Shown here: piece after piece, positions 3,406 through 43,105 of the stretch
Layout: each line of letters starts with the position of its first letter
Numbering within the stretch: position 1 is the stretch's first letter
DNA from: a bacterium
Lineage (GTDB): Bacteria > Bdellovibrionota_G > JALEGL01
Direction: 5' to 3'
DNA: 64,000 bases
NCBI GenBank assembly: GCA_022763185.1
Contig: JALEGL010000014.1
Span: 124,001 to 188,000, forward strand
The notes under the pieces: generated by a model
What the model was told of the DNA's origin: nothing
The model's database searches: none
The model's input: the letters and a program-made list of their open reading frames with translations, nothing else
Position numbers and translations under genes: made by a program

Positions 3406-6400
3406 ATGCAAAACTTATTTTCATTCTTTGAAAAACCTAAAGATCCACTATTTTTTGAAGCTATTCAGGTTGGCTTGGCGTCTCCTGAAAAAATATTAGA
3501 GTGGTCTTACGGTGAAATAAAAAAACCAGAAACCATCAATTATAGAACATTTAAGCCAGAAAGAGATGGTTTGTTTTGTGCTAAAATTTTTGGCCCAGTT
3601 AAAGACTATGAGTGTAACTGCGGTAAATATAAAAGAATGAAGCATCGCGGAATTGTCTGTGAAAAATGTGGCGTTGAAGTTATTGAGTCAAAGGTTAGAC
3701 GTGAGCGTATGGGGCACATCACTTTAGGTTCGCCTGTTGCGCATATTTGGTTTTTAAAATCTTTGCCCAGCCGTATTGGTAACCTTTTAGATTTAACCTT
3801 AAAAAACCTTGAAAAAGTTATTTATTTTGAAGCGCATATTGTTCTGGAGCCAGGTGCTTCAAGTTTAGAAAAAGGTCAGGTCCTCAGTGAAGATGAATAT
3901 CATAAGGCACTTGAGGATTTTGGTGATACAGGTTTTGAAGTTGGAATGGGTGCTGAAGCAATTAAGGTGTTGTTGAGTGATCTTGATCTGGAAGATTTAG
4001 CCGTAACGGTCAGAGAAGAAATTTCTGCAACCAAATCAGAAGCCAAGAAGAAAAAACTTGCCAAACGTCTAAAGGTTGTAGAAGCATTTAGAGAGTCTGG
4101 CAATAAACCAGAGTGGATGGTGTTGGATACAATTCCAGTGCTACCTCCTGACTTAAGACCTTTGGTAGCCTTGGAAGGTGGCCGTTTTGCTACAGCAGAC
4201 TTAAATGACTTGTACCGTCGTGTGATTAACAGAAACAATCGTTTGAAGCGTTTGTTAGAGCTAAATGCGCCTGGTATCATTATTAGAAATGAAAAAAGAA
4301 TGTTACAGGAAGCTGTAGATGCTCTGTTTGATAACGGTAGAAGAGGTAAAACCATTACAGGTACCAATAAAAGGCCTTTAAAATCTTTATCTGACATTAT
4401 TAAAGGGAAGCAAGGTCGTTTTAGACAGAACCTTTTAGGTAAACGTGTTGATTATTCAGGACGTTCAGTGATTGTGGTTGGTCCTGAGTTGAAATTGCAT
4501 CAGTGTGGTTTGCCAAAGCTTATGGCTTTGGAGTTGTTTAAGCCATTTATTTTTCAAAAACTAGATGAGAGAGGGTTTGTTCCTACAGTTAAAGCGGCTA
4601 AAAAAATGGTGGAAGACCAAACCGATGAAGTCTGGGATGCATTAGATGAAGTGGTAAGAGAGCATCCGGTGATGTTAAACCGTGCACCAACATTGCACCG
4701 TTTAGGGATTCAAGCTTTTGAGCCAGTTTTGATTGAAGGTAAGGCCATTCGTTTACACCCATTGGTTTGCTCTGCGTTTAACGCTGACTTTGATGGTGAC
4801 CAAATGGCGGTTCATGTGCCCTTGTCTATTGAGGCTCAGGTAGAAGCGCGTGTCTTAATGATGTCAACCAATAATATTTTATCTCCAGCTAATGGTAAGC
4901 CAGTTATTGTTCCTTCTCAGGATATTGTTTTGGGCTTATATTATTTAACTAAAGAAAGACCATTCTGTGTAGGTGAAGGTAAACATTTCTCCAGCGAAGA
5001 AGAAGTACGAATAGCTTATGATTCTGGTGCAATAGAATTGCATGCAAAAATTCATGTTAGAATTCGTGGAGAAAAAGTTCAAACAACCGTTGGGCGAGTC
5101 CTTCTTTTAGAAGCTTTGCCTAAAGGTTTGCCATTTTCTATGATCAATAAAGTGATGGATAAAAAGGCATTGGCAGACTTGGTTGACCAAGCGTTTCGTC
5201 TATGTGGTCAAAAAGATACTATTTTGTTGGCCGATCAGTTGAAAAACTTAGGTTATAAGCACTCTACACAAGCGGGTGTTTCAATTTGTATGGACGACAT
5301 GCAAATCCCAAGTAAAAAATATGAGCTGCTTGATAAGGCTCAAAATTCCGTTCAAGAGATTCAGAAACAATACACCGAAGGTTTAATTACTGATGGTGAA
5401 CGTTACAATAAAGTTATCGATGAGTGGGCTCAAGTGTCCGAGCAGATCGCTGGCGAAATGTTAGGTGAGCTTAGTACTGATATCGTTAAGAGTGCAGATG
5501 GTAAAGACTCTGAAGAAGCACCAAGCTTTAACCCAATTTTTATGATGGCTGATTCCGGTGCCAGAGGCAGTGCTCAGCAGTTAAGGCAGTTGGCAGGTAT
5601 GCGTGGTCTTATGGCTAAACCATCTGGCGAGATTATTGAGACACCTATTACAGCTAACTTTAAAGAAGGTTTAACGGTGCAGCAGTACTTTATCTCTACA
5701 CACGGTGCTCGTAAAGGTTTGGCAGATACTGCCTTGAAAACTGCAAACTCAGGTTATTTAACTAGACGATTGGTGGATGTTGCACAAGATGCTGTAATCA
5801 CTGAGTATGATTGTAGTACGCTAGATGGTGTTGAAGCTGTAGCTTTGATTGAGGGTGGAGAAATAATTGAGCCTCTTGGAGATCGTATCTTAGGAAGGGT
5901 TGCATTGGAAGATGTTGTTGATCCTTATTCAGGCGAAGTTGTGATCCCAGCTAATGTTGAAATTGATGAGAAAATTGTTGAGAAGGTCAATAACTCAGTT
6001 ATTGAAAAGGTGAAAATTAGATCCGTTCTTACTTGTCAAACTCGCAGAGGTATTTGTACTTTATGTTACGGGCGTGACTTGTCTCGTGGTAGAATGGTGA
6101 GCATTGGTGAAACCGTTGGTGTTATTGCTGCTCAGTCTATTGGTGAGCCAGGAACTCAGTTAACGATGAGAACCTTCCACGTTGGGGGTACCGCGACTCG
6201 TAGAGCTGAGCAGTCAACTTTAGAAAGTCGCAATGCAGGTACAATTAAATTTATCAACCTTAATACAGTAAAGAACAGAGCTGGCCGTTTAACAGTTTTA
6301 AATAGAAATGCAGAGCTTGCTATTGTTGATGACAAGGGGCGTGAGCGAGAAAAATATAAAATTCCTTACGGTTCCGAAGTCTTTTTTGATGATGGTAAAA

Positions 6401-7572
6401 AAGTCAAGGCCAATGCAATGATTGCTGAATGGGATCCTTACACCATTCCAATTATTACTGAGGTCGGTGGTATTGTTCAATTTAATGATATGATTGAAGG
6501 GAATACCGTTTCTGACCAAATGGATGCGGTTACGGGTCTTTCACGTAAAGTCATTATTGAAGCTAAAGAAGCGGGTTTAAGACCTTCTATTATCTTAACT
6601 GATAAAAAAGGTGAAACCATAAAATCTAAAGTTACAGGTGGCGATATTCAGTATGTGCTGCCGGTAGGTGCTAACTTGGCTGTTGATAATGGTGATGAAC
6701 TTAAACCTGGTGACGTTGTTGCTAAAATTACCCGCGAGAGCAGTAAAACAAAAGATATTACGGGTGGTTTGCCAAGAGTTGCAGAGCTTTTTGAAGCAAG
6801 AAAGCCAAAAGAGGTTGCTGTTATTTCTGAAATTGATGGCGCCGTATCTTTTGGTAAAGATACCAAAGGTAAGCGTAAAGTAATTGTAACTCCAGAAGTT
6901 GGAGATGCGCGTGAATACTTGATTCCTAAAGGTAAGCACATCTCTGTTATTGAAGGAGACAGAGTGGTTGCCGGTGAGGCCTTGATGGATGGCTCGGCAG
7001 ATCCGCATGATATCTTAAGTGTTCTTGGTGAAAAAGAATTGTCCAAGTACATGGTGGATGAAGTGCAAGAGGTTTATCGTTTGCAAGGTGTAAAAATTAA
7101 CGATAAGCATATTGAAACCATTGTTCGCCAAATGTTGCGTAAAGTTAAGGTTGTGGATCCAGGTGAAACCAGCTTCTTGTCTGGTGAACAAGTGGATAAA
7201 GCTGCTTTTTATGAAGAGAATGATAAAGCCTTGGCAGAGAAGAAAAAGCCAGCTAAAGCAGAAGCTTTGTTGTTAGGTATTACGAAAGCTTCTTTGTCAA
7301 CGGAGTCCTTTATATCAGCCGCATCATTCCAGGAAACCACAAAAGTGTTTACTGAAGCAGCGATCAACGGAAAAATTGATCACTTAAGAGGCTTAAAAGA
7401 AAATATTGTGATGGGTAGAATCATTCCAGCTGGAACGGGAACTGCTCATTATAGAAATTTAGGCCTTGAGGTTGTAGGAAAAGAAATTAAATCAATGGTG
7501 GACCCTACATTGGAGAGTCCAGCTAATGAAAACAACTACATAGAGAATGTAACAACAGAAACGGGTGCTTAA
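3406..7572 (+). CDS. rpoC: DNA-directed RNA polymerase subunit beta'
   Basis: This is the largest RNA polymerase subunit, 1388 residues, close to the E. coli length. It carries the catalytic Mg site N459-A-D461-F-D463-G-D465. The N-terminal zinc site is C70, C72, C85 and C88, identical in position to E. coli. The second zinc site is C803, C877, C884 and C887. The bridge-helix and trigger-loop region ([18 protein letters not shown]) is intact. The ATG follows an AGAGGAAAA Shine-Dalgarno sequence. It is co-transcribed with rpoB. A long inverted repeat follows the stop codon, before rpsL. Confidence 0.99.
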
Positions 7573-37252: not shown

Positions 37253-38128
37253 ATGGTTATAAAGTCGCGTTTAGCTAAAGTTTTTTTAATAAGTCTATAT
37301 TTATTTTTTGCAACTGTTTATGCGCAAAAAAATATAAGAGTTGTGGCCTTTGATGATGCTTCAATTGAAAAGTATGGGCCTGTGAAAGTTCTTTTACATT
37401 TAGCTAGTGCCATTAAGAATGTAAAATCTGGGGATATTGTTTTTGATATGAACCTGTGGGAACCCATTGATTTTGAAATACTTTTAAAAGACCCAAATAA
37501 AAGAGAAATGGTATTAGATTATAAAGAAGCACAAAAAATCTTTTTTCATAATGTTACAAGTTTTTGTGAGCAGTCTTTAGAACAAAATAAATTTTTTATT
37601 ACTGCCCCCGGTAGAGTACGTTTTTATGAACAAGCATCTTCAATGTATCTACAAAGCTTAAAAAACTTAGGCTTAGATCAAGAGCTTCCAACTTGTGTTG
37701 AGTTTGCTTATGCTAAAGGCTATGAAAAACAGGTGATGATTGATGGTGATATCACCAATGAAATTGCAATTGTTAAGCTTAAACATACGGACCTAGAACA
37801 CATGTTTTTTGCTATTAACAGACAAGTTTGGGGAGATGCAGGAGTCAGTTCTATGTTAAAAGGAGTAGATAGAGAGATATTTTTAGAGTATTCCTTTGTG
37901 GATACTTCTGATTACTTTGATGAAAACTATAATCCAGTTAATCGTGTGCTAGCTTTATCTTCAATGGAAAACAATGAAATTATAGACTCAGAACTCACTA
38001 TTTTTTCTGCCCATTCAATTAAAAGAGATGCTTTTATACGAAAAATAGATAAACAAGGTAAAATTAAGCAGTGGTATCCAGGCTACTTTTTAATTGTATT
38101 GGGTATAGAGTTAGTTTCAGAGTTTTAA
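37253..38128 (+). CDS. Exported CHASE2-like sensor-domain protein without output domain
   Basis: The product has 291 residues. A signal peptide covers about residues 5-24 (FLISLYLFFATVYAQ). The mature N-terminus, IRVVAFDDASIEKYGPVKV followed by the HLASAIKNVKSGDIVFDMNL segment and WEP, resembles the start of CHASE2 extracellular domains. No histidine-kinase, cyclase or GGDEF domain follows, and only a weakly hydrophobic segment lies at the C-terminus. It could be a truncated receptor or a free periplasmic ligand-binding protein. Family placement is tentative. Confidence 0.5.
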   Translation: MVIKSRLAKVFLISLYLFFATVYAQKNIRVVAFDDASIEKYGPVKVLLHLASAIKNVKSGDIVFDMNLWEPIDFEILLKDPNKREMVLDYKEAQKIFFHNVTSFCEQSLEQNKFFITAPGRVRFYEQASSMYLQSLKNLGLDQELPTCVEFAYAKGYEKQVMIDGDITNEIAIVKLKHTDLEHMFFAINRQVWGDAGVSSMLKGVDREIFLEYSFVDTSDYFDENYNPVNRVLALSSMENNEIIDSELTIFSAHSIKRDAFIRKIDKQGKIKQWYPGYFLIVLGIELVSEF

Positions 38129-40441: not shown

Positions 40442-41764
40442 ATGAGCAGAGAAGCAAAATCCAGTGAATCTAAACCAATAAGCAAGCAAGAAGACCTGTT
40501 AGATATTTTTTATGGGGGCAGTAGATCTTCAGAAGATTTCTTGGTTGGGCTTGAGACTGAAAAAATTGGTGTTTATAAAGATAACTTACAGGCCATCCCC
40601 TATGCTGGTGAAAGAGGGATTGAAACAATTTTACACGCTATTGCTGAAAATGATGACTGGAGAAAAATCCTAGATCAAGAGCAACTGATTGCGCTGGAGA
40701 AGGGGGGGCAGGCAATTACTTTAGAACCCGGTGGTCAATTAGAGCTTAGTGGTTCAGCGCACCGGTCTATTGCCGATGTTGCTCAAGAACTTGGCCAACA
40801 CTTAAAACTTCTCTGTAAAATTTCAACGCCCTTAAATATTTCTTGGTTGGGAATAGGTATTCAACCCATGAGCAGTATTGATGAGGTTTCATGGGTACCC
40901 AAGTCTCGATATAAAATTATGAAAAGCTATTTTGAGAAAGTCTCTCCGGGCGGTTTACAAATGATGAAACTAACCGCCTCATCACAAGTTAATTTAGATT
41001 ATAGCAGTGAAGAAGATGCCTCCAAAAAGGTAAGTGTGGGTAGCGTTTTTGGCGTACTGGCTTCGGCGTTAACAGCTAATTCAGCAATAGAGCAGGGGAA
41101 AAAAAATGGTTTTTGTTCCAGGCGTTTAAAGGTTTGGCAGAATACCGATAAACAACGTTGTGGGATTCCAAAATTTTTTATTGATGGTAGTTTCTCTTTT
41201 GAGAAGTATAAAGATTATGCGCAAAATATTCCTATGTACTTTTTATACAGAGATGGAGTCTATCAAGATGCAACTCAGTATTCCTTTGCTCAGGCACTTA
41301 ATAAAGGTGTGAGTTTGACACAAACTGACTGGGAGAGCCACTTAACAACTTTGTTTCCCGATGTGCGTTTAAAAAATCATTTAGAATTTAGAACTGCCGA
41401 TGCCAGCAGTGAAAAGCTATCTATAGCCATAACCGCTTTTTGGATGGCTTTATTGTATAACAACAGTTTATTGGATGAGGCTTATAATTTTTCTAAGAAA
41501 ATTGATTTGGAAACTTTACAACTTGCCATTGATGATGTTGCTCTTAATGGAATGCAAGCAAATCTAGGTAAAATAAAGATACAAGATTGGGCCAATGAGT
41601 ATATAGATTATTGTATATCAGCCATGGACAAAGTGCTTTATAATCAAGGGATGACAGATTACTTAATCCCACTCAAAGAAATTGTTGATCAAGGACAATC
41701 GCCAGCAGAACAGTTGTTGGCCAACTGGCCAACCTGTCTTAAAACACTATGCGAAAAGGAATAA
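40442..41764 (+). CDS. gshA: Glutamate-cysteine ligase, plant-type GCS2 family
   Basis: The enzyme joins glutamate and cysteine to gamma-glutamylcysteine with ATP, the first step of glutathione synthesis. It has 440 residues. Family motifs are VGLETEKIGV near residue 35, the LEPGGQLELSGS substrate site, KLTASSQVNLDY, and HLEFRTADAS. This is the GCS2 type of plants and alpha-proteobacteria, not the E. coli type. No gshB follows. Instead a VanZ-like gene overlaps its end by 16 bases and a phytochelatin-synthase-like gene is next. Confidence 0.9.
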   Translation: MSREAKSSESKPISKQEDLLDIFYGGSRSSEDFLVGLETEKIGVYKDNLQAIPYAGERGIETILHAIAENDDWRKILDQEQLIALEKGGQAITLEPGGQLELSGSAHRSIADVAQELGQHLKLLCKISTPLNISWLGIGIQPMSSIDEVSWVPKSRYKIMKSYFEKVSPGGLQMMKLTASSQVNLDYSSEEDASKKVSVGSVFGVLASALTANSAIEQGKKNGFCSRRLKVWQNTDKQRCGIPKFFIDGSFSFEKYKDYAQNIPMYFLYRDGVYQDATQYSFAQALNKGVSLTQTDWESHLTTLFPDVRLKNHLEFRTADASSEKLSIAITAFWMALLYNNSLLDEAYNFSKKIDLETLQLAIDDVALNGMQANLGKIKIQDWANEYIDYCISAMDKVLYNQGMTDYLIPLKEIVDQGQSPAEQLLANWPTCLKTLCEKE

Positions 41765-42207
41765 AATATGTTATCCCCTGCGGGATTTGGGTGGGAATTA
41801 TTTTTTTGTTTTCAAGTAAGTATTTTTCTGCAGGCAATACCAGTACAGTTTTGTATGAATGGATTCACGCTCTGTTTAAATCGTTTTCAAGACAAGATTT
41901 TTGGACCATTCATACCTACATTCGTAAGTCAGCACATATTATGGCCTATGCGGTTTTGGCATATTTTACATTGGTGGCCCAGTTAAAAAGCTTTTATATT
42001 TTTAGGTTTAAGGTGCCTAAAAAATTTTTTTTCTATGCGTTTACATTTTGTTTTAGTGTTGCTGTTTTAGATGAATACAATCAAAGTCAGATTTCTGTTC
42101 GGACAGGAACGTACAAAGATATTATCTTTGATATGATCGGTGTTTTGCTTATACTTATCTTTGTTCATTTTAAGACTATGCATCGGCAATGTAAAATTTT
42201 TATATGA
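41749..42207 (+). CDS. VanZ-like membrane protein
   Basis: The product has 152 residues with about four membrane helices. The VanZ signatures RKSAHIMAYAVLAYF and LDEYNQSQISVRTGTYKDIIFDMIG are present. VanZ proteins are linked to low-level teicoplanin resistance in enterococci, but most members have no known role. The start overlaps gshA by 16 bases, so translation is probably coupled. The overlap suggests a functional or at least transcriptional link to thiol metabolism. Confidence 0.85.
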   Translation: MRKGIKYVIPCGIWVGIIFLFSSKYFSAGNTSTVLYEWIHALFKSFSRQDFWTIHTYIRKSAHIMAYAVLAYFTLVAQLKSFYIFRFKVPKKFFFYAFTFCFSVAVLDEYNQSQISVRTGTYKDIIFDMIGVLLILIFVHFKTMHRQCKIFI

Positions 42208-42234
42208 CAGTATTGTTTGTGCAACAGCAATGTG

Positions 42235-42263
42235 TTGACAAAAAAGAGGGTAATTTGTAGTTT
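42235..42263 (+). promoter_or_regulatory. Promoter abutting the phytochelatin-synthase-like gene
   Basis: TTGACA (42235-42240), a 17-base spacer and TAGTTT (42258-42263) place transcription start within one or two bases of the ATG at 42272. No Shine-Dalgarno sequence is visible, so the transcript may be leaderless. Confidence 0.4.
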
Positions 42264-42271
42264 CAATTGCT

Positions 42272-43105
42272 ATGAAAAATTTATTGATCACATTGTTATG
42301 CATACTAAGCCTAAATTTATCATCTTGTGCGAACAAGAAAATTCCATCACAGGTCCAAGCAAATGATACTAAGCCTGAATTGATTGAGTTTTCTTCTAAA
42401 GAAGGAATGGAAAGATTCAATCGATCGAAGCATAAGCAAGATTTTTTTATTTTATCGAATCATTTTGAATCACAAACCAATAAAGTATATTGCGGCCCAA
42501 CATCAGCAGTTATTGTTCTAAACGGTTTAAGACAAGATGAACTGCGTAACAATAATATACAGTTGAAAGTTGATAAAAGTCTGATCAGCAATGTCAATAG
42601 GAAACACTTAAACTCTGAAAGAGTTTATGTATTTAATCGGTATACCTATAATAATATTTATAATGTAAACAATGTTAAAACCTCTCAGCAAGTTTTAGGT
42701 GGTCCCATGGAAAATGGAAAATCAGATTGGGGCTATCAGTTAGAACAGCTTGTACAACTATTCAAAGCGCATGGATTGAATGCGGATAAATTTGTTGTAG
42801 ATGATGCATTATCCATACAAAAAATGAAAGCAACAATGATTGATTCACTAAACAATAATTCCAATTTTATATTGGTCAATTATAAAAGAACTGCTTTAGG
42901 TCAAAAAGGTGGAGGACATATTTCTCCAATTGGAGCCTATGATAAAAAAAGTGATTCCTTTTTGATTATGGATGTAAACCCTAATAAGGCTGACTGGGTT
43001 TGGGTTGATGCTAAAGACCTTCACGCTGCAATGAAAACCTTTGATACAATAGAAAACAGAGGCTATCTAATGGTTAGCGATATTAAAGCTATGTATACCA
43101 ATTAG
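42272..43105 (+). CDS. Phytochelatin-synthase-like lipoprotein
   Basis: The product has 277 residues. A lipoprotein signal ends in L16-S-S-C19, so the mature protein should be lipid-anchored in the envelope. The phytochelatin-synthase papain-like triad appears in order: C74 in VYCGPTSAVIVLNGL, H216 in GGGHISPIGAY, and D234 in FLIMDVNPN. The His-Asp distance of 18 residues equals that of the plant enzyme as I recall it. The Cys-His distance is longer by about 36 residues. It would act on glutathione or gamma-glutamyl peptides as a transpeptidase or hydrolase. It stands beside gshA, the gene that makes gamma-glutamylcysteine. Confidence 0.75.
   Translation: MKNLLITLLCILSLNLSSCANKKIPSQVQANDTKPELIEFSSKEGMERFNRSKHKQDFFILSNHFESQTNKVYCGPTSAVIVLNGLRQDELRNNNIQLKVDKSLISNVNRKHLNSERVYVFNRYTYNNIYNVNNVKTSQQVLGGPMENGKSDWGYQLEQLVQLFKAHGLNADKFVVDDALSIQKMKATMIDSLNNNSNFILVNYKRTALGQKGGGHISPIGAYDKKSDSFLIMDVNPNKADWVWVDAKDLHAAMKTFDTIENRGYLMVSDIKAMYTN

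Follow-up and report, generated by a model that had tools for sequence, protein, structure and literature searches.

A predicted lipid-anchored member of the phytochelatin synthase family encoded downstream of a gshA-vanZ gene pair

Bacterial phytochelatin synthases (PCSs) have been studied mainly in cyanobacteria, and whether they synthesize phytochelatins or only trim glutathione is debated. PCS and gamma-glutamyltranspeptidase (GGT) act at opposite ends of glutathione. The Nostoc enzyme Alr0975 (NsPCS) needs no additives to convert glutathione efficiently into gamma-glutamylcysteine plus glycine (PMC12065762), and it produces almost no phytochelatin (PMC7411734). Another prokaryotic enzyme, the PCS of Geitlerinema, makes phytochelatins up to PC4 when cadmium is present (PMC7411734). 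For the eukaryotic enzyme AtPCS1, a second-substrate cavity that includes Gln50, Arg152, Lys185, and Tyr186 has been proposed, and NsPCS Tyr207, the counterpart of Tyr186, belongs to this proposed cavity as well (PMC3855540).

The window analyzed here was a stretch of bacterial DNA of 64,000 nucleotides, and our analysis focused on three consecutive genes on its + strand. The first, gshA (40442-41764, +), encoded a 440-residue protein of the plant glutamate-cysteine ligase type. Its product scored 169.9 bits against the GCS2 profile PF04107 in the Pfam search, which was above the cut-off, and 365 bits against TIGR01436, which was the best match among all NCBIfam models; it is likely to be a glutamate-cysteine ligase, even though the TIGR01436 equivalog cut-off of 463 bits was not reached. 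The second gene (41749-42207, +) encoded a 152-residue VanZ-family membrane protein that scored 39.8 bits against PF04892 (cut-off, 30.1) and 65.9 bits against the NCBIfam vanZ_1 model (NF037970), and its open reading frame (ORF) shared 16 bp with that of gshA. The third gene, pcs (42272-43105, +), encoded a 277-residue predicted lipoprotein that was assigned to the PCS family via PF05023, phmmer, and Foldseek. The ORF list and the profile searches thus placed all three genes where an earlier note on this DNA had put them and in the families that it had named. The vanZ and pcs genes were separated by 64 bp, no terminator-like site was found on the + strand of this interval, and the genes may be co-transcribed. 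The GC content was 32.5% for both pcs and vanZ, 38.4% for gshA, and 37.6% for the whole window, values that argue neither for nor against a lateral gain of pcs. A literature search for VanZ together with glutamate-cysteine ligase yielded nothing relevant among the matches listed. Upstream of these genes, the 291-residue product of an ORF at 37253-38128 (+) started with a sequence resembling a signal peptide and was not matched by any Pfam or NCBIfam model.

The third protein was clearly a member of the PCS family (PF05023, peptidase C83). It scored 144.9 bits against PF05023 (E value, 2.5e-42; cut-off, 24.9) over profile positions 7 to 210 of 210, compared to just 26.4 bits against the C39-type profile PF13529. 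The nearest relative with a solved structure was Alr0975 (phmmer E value of about 1e-31). A structural model generated with AlphaFold2 from a 27-sequence alignment (pLDDT, 86.8; pTM, 0.82) was searched with Foldseek, and the top nine matches were all Alr0975 (E values of 1e-18 or better). The E values for 2bu3 and 6tho were both about 1e-20 (2e-20 for 2bu3, a structure of the Alr0975-glutathione acyl-enzyme), and TM-scores to target for the Alr0975 structures ranged from 0.83 to 0.92 (0.88 to 0.92 for 2bu3). The next structure had an E value of 2e-5, and the lower matches included other papain-like peptidases that fell far below Alr0975. The PF05023 score and the Foldseek ranking ruled out membership solely in a C39-type or other papain-like family.

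The putative catalytic residues were also in place. Cys74 (codon 42491-42493, +) aligned with the Cys of the YCG motif in Alr0975 and was at least 90% conserved in alignment A1, and His216 (codon 42917-42919, +), located in the sequence GGHISP, and Asp234 (codon 42971-42973, +) were likewise aligned with Alr0975 and conserved; the three residues matched the Alr0975 triad one for one. The His-Asp spacing was 18, as it is between His162 and Asp180 of AtPCS1 (PMC3855540). The earlier note had described a PCS-like lipoprotein with this triad and this spacing, and the alignment, the AtPCS1 comparison, the profile score, and the predicted PCS fold all agreed with that description.

The predicted lipoprotein signal peptide of the window PCS (42272-42328, +) ended in the lipobox pattern LSS-Cys19 (TGT codon, 42326-42328), and the residue at position +2 was Ala. 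Judging from this pattern, the protein is apparently lipid anchored and extracytoplasmic, and it would probably be located in the outer membrane, facing the periplasm. Export as such is nothing unusual among PCSs: most of the other gammaproteobacterial PCSs sampled had N-termini that resembled signal peptides by eye, and Alr0975 also appears to be processed, since its PDB titles speak of the "mature" protein. Some of the other sampled PCS genes had unusual features. The L062 protein (genome G246; 5062-5772, -) had the best profile score in the gamma class sample (208 bits); in this protein, Ser replaced the catalytic Cys (YSGVAS) and Gln replaced the His (GGQFSP); this protein is probably inactive or repurposed. 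Locus L067 (G359) carried tandem PCS genes (5060-5794 and 5856-6653, +), each encoding a signal-peptide-like N-terminus, and the reading frame of the L058 gene (G425; about 1471-2190, -) was broken by a single in-frame TAA.

In a tree of 25 PCS rows, the window PCS fell into an 11-row group with a support of 100/99. In addition to the window PCS, this subclade contained proteins from Methyloprofundus/Bathymodiolus (mussel) symbionts, Cycloclasticus, and Oligoflexales. Every member with an intact N-terminus had a lipobox-type Cys at the end of a hydrophobic segment, with three lipoboxes (LNAC, LNAC, and TTAC) straying slightly from the strict pattern. Two features were specific to the subclade. 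One was an extra internal segment: the stretch from the Cys helix to the core was 65 residues in the window PCS versus 37 in Alr0975, a difference of about 28 residues. The other was the acceptor-side loop after the catalytic Asp, which was P237-N-K-A-D-W242 in the window PCS (42980-42997, +). The sequence PNKADW was found in 12 of the 12 subclade members examined, and canonical enzymes had RYKYPP or a close variant. As a result of this change, Ala240 occupied the position of NsPCS Tyr207 and AtPCS1 Tyr186; the second-site residues Gln68, Tyr73, Arg206, Gln211, and Lys239 were retained. The PCS family is well known, and the lipid-anchored subclade with the altered loop is a variant for which we found no description among the open-access articles searched. 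A paper on a mussel PCS was set aside, as the transcript was ascribed to the host.

Because the acceptor-side loop is changed, water would be a likelier acceptor than a second glutathione, and the products would be gamma-glutamylcysteine and glycine. The changed loop favors hydrolysis without proving it, and the window PCS may still be capable of transpeptidation, given that Gln68, Arg206, Gln211, and Lys239 are retained. The protein could instead be a periplasmic phytochelatin synthase that joins gamma-Glu-Cys units in the presence of cadmium, zinc, or copper, such that metals are held outside the cytoplasm. This idea fits the PF05023 membership, the intact triad, the retention of Gln68, Tyr73, Arg206, and Lys239 in the second site, the PC4 made by the Geitlerinema enzyme with cadmium (PMC7411734), and the fact that several subclade carriers are Bathymodiolus symbionts. 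However, the acceptor loop was altered in all subclade members, Alr0975, which is the closest enzyme to have been tested, acts mainly as a hydrolase (PMC7411734, PMC12065762), and none of the genes directly flanking the window pcs was recognized as serving metal transport or resistance. We consider a phytochelatin-producing role improbable.

The earlier note had suggested, as one possibility, a thiol-peptide or metal-handling module, but a survey of relatives indicated that the block was not kept together. Our phylum sample consisted of five genomes, four of which belonged to one order. The gshA gene was present in all five genomes, and vanZ was directly downstream of it in four, namely, the four genomes of the order (window, 40442-42207; loci L018, L021, and L022). 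The two genes overlapped by 16 bp in one of these genomes, abutted in another, and were 1 bp and about 90 bp apart in the remaining two. In contrast, pcs was found in only one of the five genomes, the window's own. Neither gshA nor vanZ was present in the flanks (5 kb where the contig allowed) at 11 loci representing the closest PCS relatives. A conserved gshA-vanZ-pcs module was rejected on the basis of this single occurrence of pcs in the phylum sample and the lack of gshA near pcs elsewhere. Evidence for a wider gshA-vanZ pair was also sought at 30 gshA loci from the phylum containing Oligoflexales, and the short flanks examined there did not contain a match to vanZ.

In wider samples, a PCS above the cut-off was carried by 15 of the 369 genomes sampled from the class of Cycloclasticus, by 9 of 151 from its order, and by 4 of 58 from the Oligoflexales-containing phylum. 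The loci examined from these samples had no gshA, gshB, or GGT gene nearby, with the exception of the Cycloclasticus GGT gene. When all neighbors were compared against each other, distant pcs carriers shared only the PCS and widespread families, ABC ATPases among them, and genes resembling modABC recurred beside pcs in Methyloprofundus-like loci only. Near pcs, one methanotroph-like locus and two Cycloclasticus loci (L010, 10170-10577, +; L012, 5789-6184, -; L011, 5810-6205, -) encoded copies of a small protein whose N-terminus resembled a signal peptide, and the L012 copy had no Pfam family. At the canonical locus L120, a VanZ-family gene was located near pcs, without gshA; we read this proximity as chance.

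VanZ is tied to gshA and not to pcs. From the distribution of the genes, gshA-vanZ has the look of an old pair in the order, and pcs that of a later, lineage-specific addition downstream. The link between gshA and pcs is suggestive only, and because it was seen once, gshA adjacency is weak evidence on the substrate. The gene order may simply reflect chance, with pcs gained laterally and landing downstream of gshA-vanZ without any functional link to gshA. The other four phylum genomes lacked pcs, the nearest PCS relatives found were in other phyla, and no other pcs locus had gshA nearby (about 5 kb where the contig was that long), all of which would be expected under such a history; the shared strand, the 64-bp gap, and the terminator-free + strand between vanZ and pcs speak against it. 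We put this explanation at slightly under an even chance. It concerns linkage only and is compatible with the glycine carboxypeptidase function proposed below.

The absence of gshB had led the earlier note to ask what the final thiol might be. This absence held for the window but not for the genome, in which a gshB gene was located on another contig (403 bits; cut-off, 299). With this strong gshB in the genome, ordinary glutathione is the most likely final thiol. The question is a real one for G001 and G002 (96% and 74% complete, respectively), two genomes of the same order that had gshA next to vanZ and no pcs, because their matches to the gshB model were weak (66 and 63 bits). Among the PCS carriers tested, gshB either exceeded the cut-off or was represented by a divergent, gshB-like match. 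Hence, the lack of co-occurrence with gshA, which the earlier note had considered to be evidence against its proposal, applied to adjacency but not to the wider pathway. A search for GGT in the window's genome, which was 97% complete, yielded no match.

In two Cycloclasticus genomes, the gene for the PCS lipoprotein followed a GGT gene at a distance of about 40 bp, and the GGT product itself had a lipoprotein-type signal. These two genomes are related, and therefore the pairing is probably one event. The GGT neighbor points to glutathione as the substrate and to its breakdown outside the cytoplasm.

We think it fairly probable that the window PCS is an envelope-anchored glycine carboxypeptidase that acts on glutathione or a glutathione conjugate, rather than part of a phytochelatin or metal module. 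Specifically, Cys74-His216-Asp234 would take the gamma-Glu-Cys portion of glutathione or an S-conjugate as an acyl-enzyme, with the release of glycine. The substrate would be cytoplasmic glutathione that is made by GshA and GshB and then exported, or glutathione taken from outside. In the window's genome, which had no GGT, gamma-glutamylcysteine might be the end product, or it might be reimported and reused by GshB; in Cycloclasticus, the adjoining GGT lipoprotein could complete the breakdown of glutathione. Of the interpretations in the earlier note, processing of glutathione outside the cytosol was the best reading, and the gshB puzzle and the conserved module did not hold up. A papain-like enzyme might also have moved to some other small envelope peptide, gamma-linked or wall derived, in which case glutathione would be irrelevant. 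The subclade-specific insertion and loop, the lack of conserved glutathione-gene neighbors in most carriers, and the lower-ranked Foldseek matches to other papain-like peptidases could be explained in this way, but the triad and most of the neighboring residues were retained, GGT adjoins pcs in Cycloclasticus and gshA is near pcs here, and the carriers tested had gshB or a divergent match. A switch to another peptide seems unlikely to us.

The lipoprotein anchor, the changed loop, and the Cycloclasticus GGT neighbor point to glutathione handling in the envelope. As a broader and more tentative proposal, which we hold to be possible rather than probable, the lipid-anchored PCSs might be a distinct subfamily that has lost the acceptor site for making phytochelatins and spread between phyla as a dedicated envelope deglycylase for glutathione or its conjugates, an alternative first step of extracytoplasmic breakdown with or without GGT. 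The subclade also lends itself to a clean test of the residues that distinguish trimming enzymes from those that synthesize phytochelatins.

Compared to described systems, the window PCS was most reminiscent of Alr0975 (PDB 2btw, 2bu3, 6th5, 6tho, and 6tjl), with which it shared a half-size PCS domain, the fold, and the Cys-His-Asp triad; it differed in having a lipobox, about 28 more residues, and PNKADW in place of RYKYPP. Like AtPCS1 (Cys56, His162, and Asp180), it had the spacing of 18 and the second-site Gln, Arg, and Lys (PMC3855540), but it lacked the C-terminal regulatory domain, had Ala240 as the equivalent of Tyr186, and was predicted to be exported, whereas AtPCS1 is cytosolic. The canonical gammaproteobacterial PCSs (for example, L062 and L065 to L068) also belonged to PF05023 and had N-terminal export signals that looked cleavable by eye; however, they formed a separate branch of the tree, had an RYKYPP-type loop, and mostly lacked a lipobox. 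Finally, periplasmic GGT, such as that of Helicobacter pylori (PMC10406306), has no match in the window's genome and adjoins pcs in Cycloclasticus. Both enzymes would break down glutathione outside the cytoplasm, but GGT strips the gamma-glutamyl group and leaves Cys-Gly, whereas PCS strips the glycine.
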